From a virus, in the IMG/VR virus record IMGVR_UViG_3300047157_000159, positions 1-36,202 of that record: a stretch of 36,202 nucleotides of DNA; one strand, given 5' to 3'. The notes below the pieces were generated by a model that searched no databases, had not been told where the DNA came from, and worked only from the letters and a program-made list of their open reading frames with translations. Position 1 is the stretch's first letter; every line of letters starts with the position of its first letter. Both the position numbers and the translations under genes were made by a program. This document shows, piece after piece, positions 8,681-31,474 of the stretch.

Positions 8681-9574
8681 ATGGCTTTAGATGAAGCGTG
8701 GGCGACAGGATCGTCCGTAAACAACACTAACCACGCAAGTTTCATTCCGAAACTCTGGTCAGACGAGATCATTGCTGAGTACGAGAAGTCTCTCGTAATG
8801 AAGCCACTGGTTAAGTCTATGAAGATGGCAGGCAAGAAGGGAGACACTATCAATATCCCTATGCCCGTCCGTGGTGAAGCAAACGCAAAGGTTAAAGAGA
8901 CTCAGGTAACACTGGTCGCTGACGCCTCAACCAACAAAGCAGTCACAATCGATCAGCATTGGGAGTATTCACGGCTGATTGAAGACATTACTTCAGTACA
9001 GGCACTGGCTTCTATGCGTAAGTTCTACACGCAAGACGCTGGTTACGCGCTGGCTACCAAGGTTGATGCTGACCTGATTGCCGCCGCTATTGCTGGCTGG
9101 ACTACTGTTGGTCACATGACTGCTGACGCACTGGTTGTACCTGCTGTATCAGGGTCGGCTACTGACTTCTCTGACCAAGGGTTCCGTGATGGCATTCAGA
9201 TTCTGGATGACAACAACGTACCTATGGACGGACGTAAGCTGGTAATCCCACCTGCGGCTCGTAACCACATCATGGGCATTGATCGCTATGTATCTAGCGA
9301 CTTTGTTAATGGTCGTGGCGTAGTTAACGGCAAGATTGGTGAGTTGTATGGCGTAGATGTTTACGTTTCAACCAACCTGCCTGCTAACGCTGATGGCGAG
9401 AAGCCCTGCCTGTTGTTCCACACTGATGCTCTGGTAATTGCTGAGCAGTTGGGTGTGCGTACTCAGACTCAGTACAAGCAAGAATATTTGTCAGATTTGA
9501 TGACGGCCGATACCTTGTACGGGTATGACGATTACCGGCCTGAAGCCGGAGTCGTGATGTATGTGGCAGGCTGA
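8681..9574 (+). CDS. Major capsid protein
   Basis: This 297-residue protein has the features of an HK97-fold coat protein of the podovirus type: FIPKLWSDEIIAEYEKSLVM near the N-terminus, DTINIPMP, a WEYSRLIEDI segment, RKLVIPPAARNHIM and the end YDDYRPEAGVVMYVAG. It lies directly after the scaffold, has the best ribosome binding site of the region (AAGGAG, 8668-8673) and is followed by a terminator-like hairpin, consistent with high expression. A diverged second copy of its last codons occurs at 9609-9674, suggesting that the gene was exchanged by recombination. Confidence 0.9.
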   Translation: MALDEAWATGSSVNNTNHASFIPKLWSDEIIAEYEKSLVMKPLVKSMKMAGKKGDTINIPMPVRGEANAKVKETQVTLVADASTNKAVTIDQHWEYSRLIEDITSVQALASMRKFYTQDAGYALATKVDADLIAAAIAGWTTVGHMTADALVVPAVSGSATDFSDQGFRDGIQILDDNNVPMDGRKLVIPPAARNHIMGIDRYVSSDFVNGRGVVNGKIGELYGVDVYVSTNLPANADGEKPCLLFHTDALVIAEQLGVRTQTQYKQEYLSDLMTADTLYGYDDYRPEAGVVMYVAG

Positions 9575-9608
9575 TTAGCCTGATGCCAGAACTTAGCCTC
9601 AGCAGATT

Positions 9609-9674
9609 TATGACGATTACCGTATATGCCGGATATGCCGAGAGGCTGGTGTTGTTATGTACGTGGCTGGTTAA
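9609..9674 (+). pseudogene. Leftover 3' end of a second capsid gene
   Basis: Read in frame from 9609, the sequence gives YDDYR, then a six-residue ICRICR insertion, then EAGVVMYVAG and TAA. The true capsid gene ends YDDYRPEAGVVMYVAG and TGA 35 bases earlier. The shared first 14 bases (TATGACGATTACCG) are identical, but in EAGVVMYVAG eight of ten codons differ, all at the third base. No start codon or ribosome binding site supports separate expression. It is best read as a remnant of a related capsid allele. Confidence 0.75.
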
Positions 9675-9681
9675 GTAACAC

Positions 9682-9712
9682 GGCTCCTCCTTCGTGGGGG
9701 AGCCATTTCTTA
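9682..9712 (+). terminator. Probable terminator after the capsid gene
   Basis: GGCTCCTCC and GGGGGAGCC pair over 9 positions with one T-G wobble, around a TTCGT loop, and are followed by ATTTCTTA. The stem is strong but the T-tract is poor, so termination may be partial, which would lower expression of downstream tail genes relative to capsid. Confidence 0.65.
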
Positions 9713-9759
9713 CTGCATCCTCGGCCCTCCGATTATACCGCGTTAGGAGAATATTGCTA

Positions 9760-10476
9760 ATGGCCTATAAGCAGAAGCACAAGTACGGGTACAGGGACTC
9801 TTTAGAGAAGGGTGACCCCGAAAAGGTCATCTATGGACAGCAGTTTGATGATGAATTTGAGGCTATTGAGCAGGCTCTTCTTGCTATTGACCCTGACTCA
9901 GATGGCGGCGTAGGCATTGACGAGGTCGATGGCCTACAGGAAGAGCTAGACAAGAAGATTGAAGACGCACCTAGTGATGGGAAGCAGTACGCCAGGGAAG
10001 ATGGGGCGTGGACTGAGGTTGATATACCTGATGTTGATGTATCTGGGCTGGTTGAAGAAGCCCCAGATGACGGCAAGCAGTACGTCAGAGAGTCAAAGGC
10101 GTGGGCTGAGGCTGTCACACCTGGAGGTGGAGCCAGTTCGTGGAACGACCTGACTGACAAGCCTACAGAGTTCCCGCCAGAGAGCCACAATCACGTTGTA
10201 GCGGACATTACCGACTTCGATCCAGCTGACTACCAGCCCGTTGGTGATTACCTCACTGAGGCACCTAATGACGGCAAACAGTACGTCAGGAAGTCCGAGG
10301 CATGGGCAGAAGCAGTCACCTACGACGACAGCACCTTGCTTGCGACTATTGCGGCCCTCGAGGCCCGAATTGATACGCTCGAGAACGCAAGCGGCGGCAG
10401 TCTCTGGACTGACAATGGTAATGGCTCTATCAGCTACAGCGGCGTAGTCAAAGCCAACGACTTTGTTGCGGAGTAA
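9760..10476 (+). CDS. Fibre-like protein with three DGKQY repeats
   Basis: This 238-residue protein starts at the ATG preceded by AGGAGA; an upstream in-frame GTG at 9694 lies in the terminator stem and is rejected. Three copies of a roughly 20-residue unit occur (DAPSDGKQYAREDGAWTEV, EAPDDGKQYVRESKAWAEA and EAPNDGKQYVRKSEAWAEA), a repeat found in many phage fibre and appendage proteins. Between the second and third is a WNDLTDKP...HNHVVADI segment typical of fibre proteins. A helical stretch LLATIAALEARIDTLE near residue 205 could trimerise. It probably forms part of a tail fibre or an adaptor for one. Confidence 0.75.
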   Translation: MAYKQKHKYGYRDSLEKGDPEKVIYGQQFDDEFEAIEQALLAIDPDSDGGVGIDEVDGLQEELDKKIEDAPSDGKQYAREDGAWTEVDIPDVDVSGLVEEAPDDGKQYVRESKAWAEAVTPGGGASSWNDLTDKPTEFPPESHNHVVADITDFDPADYQPVGDYLTEAPNDGKQYVRKSEAWAEAVTYDDSTLLATIAALEARIDTLENASGGSLWTDNGNGSISYSGVVKANDFVAE

Positions 10477-28119: not shown

Positions 28120-28235
28120 TGATACACCTCCATGAACACAGTCATCGCTATGACCGCTATAAGAGCCATGAGGGCCTCGTTCTCTTTAGCCATAGTCAGG
28201 TACTCCCTTAGTGGTTTTGTCCTAGGAGGAGCCAT
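28110..28235 (-). CDS. 41-residue single-span membrane peptide
   Basis: An AGGAGG box sits six bases before the ATG, one of the best in the window. The peptide has a basic N-terminus ([13 protein letters not shown]) and one hydrophobic helix [18 protein letters not shown]. It overlaps the HNH gene upstream by 14 bases and the PD-(D/E)XK gene downstream by 10. A single-span phage peptide could be a pinholin-like lysis protein or a membrane regulator of the host; lysis genes are otherwise missing, but the position in a DNA-metabolism operon is odd for a holin. Confidence 0.65.
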
Positions 28236-28554
28236 ACAGAGCCTCCTGTGCGTGTCTATACATGCGCCCATGCTTTATGTGTCCCAGATAGCTGAGGCTT
28301 TTGCCCGTTAGCTTTGATAGCTGAGTCGAACTCATCCCGTATTGCATGAGTCGGCGCATGGCTACTGCTTGGCTGTCAGTTAGCTTGGCTCCGCTTCGAT
28401 GTAGCCTGTGCTTGTGGGCATGAGATAAATTCTCTGAGTGAGTTGACCACTCTAAGTTAGAGGCGTGGTTGTTAGACTTGTCGCCATCCTTATGATTAAC
28501 CTCTTGCTTGTTGCCAGGATTAGGAACAAACGCTTGGGCTACCAGCCGATGCAC
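28222..28554 (-). CDS. HNH homing endonuclease, C-terminal part (frame-broken)
   Basis: This frame carries the HNH part: [37 protein letters not shown] and a C-terminal DNA-binding tail with a helix-turn-helix look ([20 protein letters not shown]). It should be continuous with the NUMOD4-like frame at 28520-28756; removing one C of the CC at 28554-28555 joins them as [13 protein letters not shown], exactly the expected family sequence. As given, the GTG at 28554 could only start a truncated protein. Homing endonucleases of this kind cut alleles lacking the gene. Confidence 0.8.
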
Positions 28555-28756
28555 CAGTCACTCCCTTCCTGTCTCCATCTAAGGAAAGGTGGACCATTTG
28601 ATAGCCGCTGTTTTGAGCGCGACTCTTTAGAAACTTCTGGCTTCTATGAGAGTAGACTTGCCCGTCAATGCTGATTGAGTACGGCCAACCCTCAATAGCT
28701 ATCAGGCTCTTGGCTTGGGATGGGGACGTACACTCCGGTATTCCTGTTGACTGCAT
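28520..28756 (-). CDS. HNH homing endonuclease, N-terminal NUMOD4-like part (frame-broken)
   Basis: The translation contains [20 protein letters not shown] and [17 protein letters not shown], the NUMOD4-type DNA-binding start of phage HNH homing endonucleases. After GDRKGVT the frame turns meaningless, and the HNH part continues in the +1 frame. The ATG at 28756 lies well inside the upstream gene (65-base overlap), as is common for an inserted homing gene. The break is either a sequencing indel, decay of a selfish element or, less likely, frameshifting. Confidence 0.7.
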
Positions 28757-30747: not shown

Positions 30748-31064
30748 GCGATGATCGCAAACCACTACCAGAGACAGGGTTCCGGTGCTACCCAGCTAAG
30801 CCTGAGTCAATCACCTGCAACATGACAATCCTAATTGACCAAATGATTACGTGGTTGCAAGCAGAGAAAGCTAAGGGGGAGGAGAAAGTAAAGCTGACTA
30901 TGCTCCCCACTCAAAAACCGGACGCTAAGGTGTCTCACTTCTTTGCTTACGATGACTTCAAGCCAGAGAAACAGGGCGGTAATCAGCAGAGCAGAAGCAA
31001 CGTCACGCCTATGGCACCGTCAATACCTGAGGGCGACATACCTTTTAATTGTGGTGTTGCATGA
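30744..31064 (+). CDS. Protein with SSB-like DIPF motif (106 aa)
   Basis: Overlaps the preceding gene by four bases (ATGA) with AAGGAG upstream. The body (GFRCYPAKPESITCNMTILI, VSHFFAYDDFKPEK) is not a recognisable OB fold. Near the end is PEGDIPF, which matches the acidic tip by which bacterial SSB proteins bind partners; normally that tip is the very end. Here NCGVA follows before TGA. One more T in the TTTT at about 31043-31046 would put a TAA directly after DIPF. It may bind ssDNA, or host SSB partners, alongside the previous protein. Confidence 0.5.
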   Translation: MSDDRKPLPETGFRCYPAKPESITCNMTILIDQMITWLQAEKAKGEEKVKLTMLPTQKPDAKVSHFFAYDDFKPEKQGGNQQSRSNVTPMAPSIPEGDIPFNCGVA

Positions 31065-31474
31065 TCACCGACCAAAAAAAATCATGCTTTAAGTGCGGGG
31101 AAGAAAAGCCACTGGCTGAGTATTACCGGCACAAGCAAATGGCTGACGGTCATCTGAACAAGTGCAAAGCCTGCACCAAATCAGATGTGAGATCGCATCG
31201 GCAAGACCCACGCTATCGGGCGAAGGTACTAGCCTATGACCGTGCGCGTGGTTGCCGTCAGTCACCTGAGTATCTGCGTGAGTGGAGGAGGAAGAACCCA
31301 GAGAAGGCCCATGCCCACAAGCAAGTGCAGATGCACCTTGAGAATCCTGGAGTCTGCTCTGAGTGTCCATCAACCTTCCACGTTGAGGCACACCACGATG
31401 ATTACTCTAAGCCACTAGATGTACGTTGGCTTTGTGCGGCCTGCCATAAGCAACATCATGCTAAGGCGGGATAA
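31061..31474 (+). CDS. Zinc-finger / HNH-type nuclease (137 aa)
   Basis: The ATG at 31061 overlaps the preceding stop (ATGA); the in-frame TTG at 31049 is not preferred. The N-terminus CFKCGEEKPLAEYYRHKQMA with CKAC forms a four-cysteine zinc finger common at the start of phage HNH proteins. The C-terminal part has CSECP, EAHHDDYSKPLDVRWLCAAC and HKQHH, a complete HNH-like zinc fold. It could be a free-standing homing endonuclease or a recombination nuclease. It is followed by a 164-base gap with strong RNA structure potential. Confidence 0.75.
   Translation: MITDQKKSCFKCGEEKPLAEYYRHKQMADGHLNKCKACTKSDVRSHRQDPRYRAKVLAYDRARGCRQSPEYLREWRRKNPEKAHAHKQVQMHLENPGVCSECPSTFHVEAHHDDYSKPLDVRWLCAACHKQHHAKAG

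Follow-up and report, generated by a model that had tools for sequence, protein, structure and literature searches.

The question raised by this locus is why the end of a phage major capsid gene is encoded twice in succession, in two codon spellings, and which of the two copies is native. The locus belongs to a metagenomic virus (source record IMGVR_UViG_3300047157_000159, IMG/VR), and the whole stretch of 36.2 kb that was analysed is referred to below as the window. Its gene content includes a terminase, an SU10/P22-like portal and the major capsid gene. The features on which the argument depends are as follows.

8681-9574, + strand: major capsid gene (Pfam Phage_capsid_2, 5.8e-13; phrog_267 major head protein, 8.8e-51)
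8681-9478, + strand: capsid codons 1-266, the resident part of the gene by codon comparison (codons 226-266: up to 33 of 36 same-residue codons common with relatives)
9479-9574, + strand: capsid codons 267-297 and the TGA stop, the foreign, respelled working tail and first copy (codon comparison with relatives)
9479-9571, + strand: coding stretch of the working tail, YLSDLMTADTLYGYDDYRPEAGVVMYVAG, in the window's own codon spelling
9575-9608, + strand: 34-nt spacer between the capsid stop and the second copy, which arrived with the foreign tail
9609-9674, + strand: leftover end of the native capsid gene, encoding YDDYR-insert-EAGVVMYVAG and closing with TAA (the relatives L084/L085 and L095 agree with it in codons, stop and the bases that follow)
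9624-9641, + strand: 18-bp insert, ATATGCCGG ATATGCCGA, inside the leftover at the Arg/Pro boundary (in the alignment, relatives have one codon here, mostly proline)
9682-9704, + strand: terminator hairpin of the native end (terminator scan; L084/L085 have one of like form at the same place behind their stop)
31049-31474, + strand: EndoVII/HNH-type nuclease ORF, distant from the capsid gene but of the family found behind that gene in relatives (phrog_2340, 5.7e-26; profile of the capsid-linked nucleases, E 2.9e-10, matched chiefly in the N-terminal half)

The two copies

The working capsid end reads TAT GAC GAT TAC CGG CCT GAA GCC GGA GTC GTG ATG TAT GTG GCA GGC TGA, and positions 9609-9674 read TAT GAC GAT TAC CGT [ATA TGC CGG ATA TGC CGA] GAG GCT GGT GTT GTT ATG TAC GTG GCT GGT TAA, which translates as YDDYR-ICRICR-EAGVVMYVAG-stop. 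The doubling that had been noticed in the original prediction is therefore real. The exact 14-bp repeat TATGACGATTACCG is present at 9524-9537 and at 9609-9622, with a spacing of 85 bp, and EAGVVMYVAG followed by a stop is encoded twice, with eight of the ten codons differing, in every case at the third base only, so that just the ATG and one GTG are unchanged. The 14-mer is common to both copies because both code for YDDYR, with only four two-fold third positions. Chance origin of the second copy is excluded by its fifteen identical residues, which keep their order and lie beside a genuine gene end; the stop, spacer and terminator of the relatives, which continue after it, exclude it as well. 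No template for the 18-bp insert at the Arg/Pro codons was found elsewhere in the window; one speculative reading is that it was filled in during repair.

The second copy had been described as in-frame, but it lies in the +1 frame relative to the capsid gene, beginning 34 nt past the capsid stop (9572-9574), and it is preceded by an in-frame TAG at 9594-9596 and has no start codon, so it is not expressed on its own. Its translation by a frameshift or a ribosome hop, yielding an alternative capsid end, would agree with the exact preservation of the protein sequence in both copies. The frame, the upstream stop and the missing start codon nevertheless speak against it, as do the six odd residues that replace the proline, the absence of such a second tail from the other 135 capsid ends, and the folding of the region, which is not unusual (z -1.4); we regard such translation as hardly credible. 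Among the 136 capsid-gene ends compared directly, a second copy downstream was present in the window only. A different variation at the capsid stop was seen between two relatives: L083 is without one base immediately beside the stop and reads through into the spacer, which adds KGSTS to the capsid protein, whereas L087, otherwise identical in this region, has a normal stop.

Native and foreign parts of the gene

A conserved 21-mer of the capsid gene is common to sixteen viral contigs. Those in which the gene end was covered have a single capsid tail, usually with a terminator and the next gene close behind. At this end L084/L085 read GTTGCTGGTTAAGTAACACGGCCCCCTTCGGGGGGCCATTT, and the leftover together with its stop, spacer and terminator is 84.6% identical to this end over 52 nt. 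It had been proposed to look for a relative whose capsid gene ends with the codons of the second copy, and the gene ends of L084/L085 and L095 (GTTGCTGGTTAAGTAACACGGC, GTTGCTGGTTAAGTAATACG) do resemble it. In 214 same-residue codon comparisons with relatives, 119 matched the leftover and 63 the first copy. Since the spelling, the stop and the terminator of the stranded copy are like those of the relatives, this copy is the original, resident tail, and it is the working tail that is foreign. The resemblance to L084/L085 and L095 bears out the earlier view that the two tails diverged while each was the coding end of a capsid gene, and that their later joining left the old tail behind.

The gene behind the capsid gene (9757-10476) encodes a fibritin/whisker-like protein (Fibritin_C, 7.1e-14) that contains repeats of APDDGKQYVRESKAWAEAV, and it occupies a position at which the gene is often exchanged among relatives; its 5' end is 78% identical over 111 bp to L082/L088. 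A nucleotide search of annotated phages and plasmids with the capsid region gave no match, nor did the pattern TAYGAYGAYTAYMGNCCNGARDSNGG. The conserved capsid 21-mer was not found in genome contigs, where a search with the capsid protein gave five distant relatives (34-54%).

The replacement, however, did not involve the whole capsid gene, as had been supposed. Up to about codon 266 the codons match those of close relatives: in codons 226-266 the window shares 33 of 36 same-residue codons with L097 and 33 of 38 with L089, and in codons 267-297 only 5 of 22 and 6 of 23, respectively (P 1e-7 for the drop against L097). With its closest relatives the working tail has 3-10 of 22-26 same-residue codons in common, and its best match, 0.42, is the lowest among all the tails compared. 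When 434 pairs of capsid genes were ranked by the drop from upstream region to tail, the top seven all included the window; the next strongest drop was that of L006 against L131, the latter a carrier of the nuclease gene considered below. The foreign segment accordingly spans 9479-9608, that is, about 130 bp comprising the last 31 codons, the stop and 34 nt. The 45 bp upstream of the first 14-mer (9479-9523) are respelled too, and foreign sequence thus lies on both sides of this 14-mer, which is incompatible with the crossover at TATGACGATTACCG that had been proposed. The left junction, near 9479, is instead a homologous one, at the end of a very conserved stretch closing with codon 266; at the right junction (9608/9609) the foreign spacer runs into the old tail halfway along, in no homologous register. 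The comparison shows a foreign, synonymously respelled tail attached to the resident capsid gene at codon 266/267, with the old tail stranded.

Insertion of an integrase-type element whose end restores the gene was rejected, because the two copies have no element between them and the respelling already starts 45 bp upstream of the repeat. An 18-mer of the spacer had no capsid-linked match in viral contigs, the sole hit being L110, an unrelated 220-kb contig; the 34-nt spacer had no template elsewhere in the window; and the pattern of the respelled tail with ACG codons matched other capsid branches, none of which had the window's tail. The DNA spelling of capsid codons 240-263 (window 9398-9469) is unusually constant across relatives, with a mean codon identity of up to 0.87, and this stretch may be a favoured exchange site.

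A nuclease gene behind the capsid gene of relatives

Several relatives have an ORF of an EndoVII/HNH family (phrog_1035) behind the capsid gene. Two such nuclease proteins served as queries, and the loci were then confirmed with a profile. The closest homologues examined start 64-112 nt after the stop of a capsid gene of the same family. An HNH/EndoVII-like gene lies between the capsid gene and the next structural gene at 35 loci (18 distinct capsid ends) and is absent from 66 others, so that in the relatives the nuclease is an optional gene between conserved genes, as is characteristic of a homing locus. Two further marks of homing are present there: the carrier's own putative target is altered, strongly in the branch with LSTL tails (branch B) and weakly in L159/L165, and the flank moves together with the nuclease.

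The alteration is visible in the codons of the tail. In pairs matched for the upstream region, where codon identity was 0.72-0.73 in every class, identity in the tail was 0.62 for pairs of non-carriers, 0.53 for pairs of carriers and 0.41 for mixed pairs. The carrier/non-carrier difference gave p 0.0002 (the floor of 5000 shuffles) in a permutation in which near-identical genes were collapsed to clusters, 14 against 50 (9 against 29 in branch B), a procedure that removes shared descent only in part, as the carriers are interrelated. Within branch B alone the values were 0.42 against 0.65 (p 0.0002), and the identity per codon fell from 70/77 at codon 262 and 55/77 at codon 263 to 4/77 at codon 264 and 0/77 at serine 271; in carriers the respelling of the tail sets in at codon 264. 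In trees of equal-length segments the nuclease label changes 7-10 times upstream and 4 times on the tail. L128 is a capsid-tail recombinant, L115-like up to the YR codons and L127-like after them. The tail thus moves with the nuclease rather than with the remainder of the capsid gene. This link to the nuclease is clear in branch B; in the window's own branch, where L006 is the only close non-carrier available for comparison, identity in the tail drops in L167 and in L156 (the same phage as L131) but hardly in L159 and L165.

Several capsid ends are also followed, 10-56 nt past the stop, by an RNA element that resembles a compact hairpin and has additional pairs at its flanks, GGGG-GAA-(variable stem-loop)-AGTA-CCCC. 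It is present in L156, L159, L165, L098-L106, L004, L043, L063, L080 and L115-L129, as 19 distinct sequences that include many nuclease carriers and some non-carriers, and is not in the window. It matched no Rfam family, and a bulged-G (sarcin-ricin/loop E) module may be formed by its GAA/AGTA sides.

The window shares part of this picture. Its tail is respelled from codon 267, three codons away from the boundary in carriers (264), and its drop is the largest of all sequences. No nuclease gene is present at the locus, just 34 nt lying between the copies with no recognisable nuclease piece therein. The tail is not kin to that of a known carrier: its codon identity to carriers is 0.25-0.42, no nuclease-carrying relative with a window-like tail was found among the sampled carriers, and the tail tree places the window by itself on a long branch whose nearest neighbours are non-carrier or unclassified tails. 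Elsewhere in the window (28222-28756, minus strand) a NUMOD4 + HNH_3 homing endonuclease is divided between two frames that overlap, which probably reflects either a disrupted gene or a frameshift introduced by sequencing.

Origin of the exchanged tail

We consider it slightly better than an even chance (about 0.5) that the swapped tail is the scar of an incomplete or decayed event of intronless homing by an EndoVII/HNH nuclease. The sequences themselves indicate that about 130 bp (9479-9608) from an unsampled phage of the same capsid family overwrote the start of the native tail, and that the irregular right junction inside that tail left its last 16 codons, stop and terminator stranded and non-coding. 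Mechanistically, the capsid-adjacent nuclease would cut the capsid tails of phages that have no nuclease, and repair would copy the carrier's cut-proof respelled tail, normally together with the nuclease gene. In the window's ancestor the copying may have ended 34 nt past the stop, with an irregular join to the broken resident tail; alternatively, the nuclease gene may have been deleted later. More generally, and more tentatively, in this widespread capsid family the nuclease gene and the respelled last ~34 capsid codons may form one mobile cassette that overwrites the ends of nuclease-less genes, of which the window would record an incomplete event with the old end kept.

The same two junctions could have been produced by ordinary mosaic recombination between co-infecting phages with no nuclease involved, the left one homologous and the right one irregular. 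The two observed junctions suffice for such an event, the boundaries of the capsid tail and of the downstream gene are mosaic across the whole family, and recombination that uses homology at one end and joins the other irregularly is known in bacteria as homology-facilitated illegitimate recombination (PMC3240628). That process resembles the window in combining one homologous and one irregular junction; it acts, however, on linear DNA taken up by bacteria, while the event proposed here would be triggered by a nuclease that cuts a phage gene. We hold mosaic recombination to be somewhat unlikely, as it leaves unexplained both the position of the boundary within three codons of that in nuclease carriers and the association of respelling with the nuclease in relatives. 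It is also conceivable that the right side is the incoming one, an exchange of the fibritin-like gene having carried in a stub of another phage's capsid tail when the tail of the window was already respelled. The frequent swapping of the gene behind the capsid in relatives would suit this, as would the likeness of the 5' end of the downstream gene to L082/L088, when the leftover and terminator are like L084/L085; the need for a separate second event to account for the boundary at 9479 makes it improbable. As the window is a metagenomic virus record (IMG/VR), two co-occurring phages might also have been fused into a chimera during assembly or amplification. The shared 14 bp are shorter than the words that assemblers usually use, synteny with relatives is kept on both sides, and there is a further junction at 9479, a homologous one, all of which makes a chimera a shade more improbable still.

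Homing therefore remains the reading that we prefer. Intronless homing by free-standing phage endonucleases with co-conversion of the flanks is well described (PMC2988022). At the T4 SegF and SegG loci, as in the relatives studied here, the nuclease lies beside a conserved gene with carriers and non-carriers among close kin, the neighbouring gene of the carrier is altered and the flank moves with the nuclease (PMC2988022). In contrast to them the window has no nuclease at the site and keeps part of the old tail, and cutting is here putative; the sites cut by the T4 enzymes lie hundreds to thousands of bp from the genes that encode them (PMC2988022). A parallel of EndoVII type is F-CphI of cyanophage S-PM2, a free-standing homing endonuclease encoded next to psbA (PMC6083498). 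Its gene likewise adjoins a conserved phage gene, and it cuts a related phage's version of psbA (PMC6083498); there, however, an intron protects the carrier, whereas the tail of the carriers here is synonymously respelled. Homing endonuclease genes near capsid and other essential genes, at the boundaries of genetic exchange, appear in Barth et al. 2023 (PMC10448857), the available part of which describes neither respelled gene tails nor a stranded old tail, both of which the window has. A limited literature search found no report of a nuclease-linked respelled capsid tail, nor of a stranded old one.

A synonymously respelled gene end tied to a nuclease would be a footprint of past homing that can be read from the sequence even after the nuclease has been lost. 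The stranded old tail of the window would pinpoint such an event in one genome and supplies defined DNA substrates. If this interpretation is true, parasitic nucleases shape the DNA of a highly conserved phage gene.
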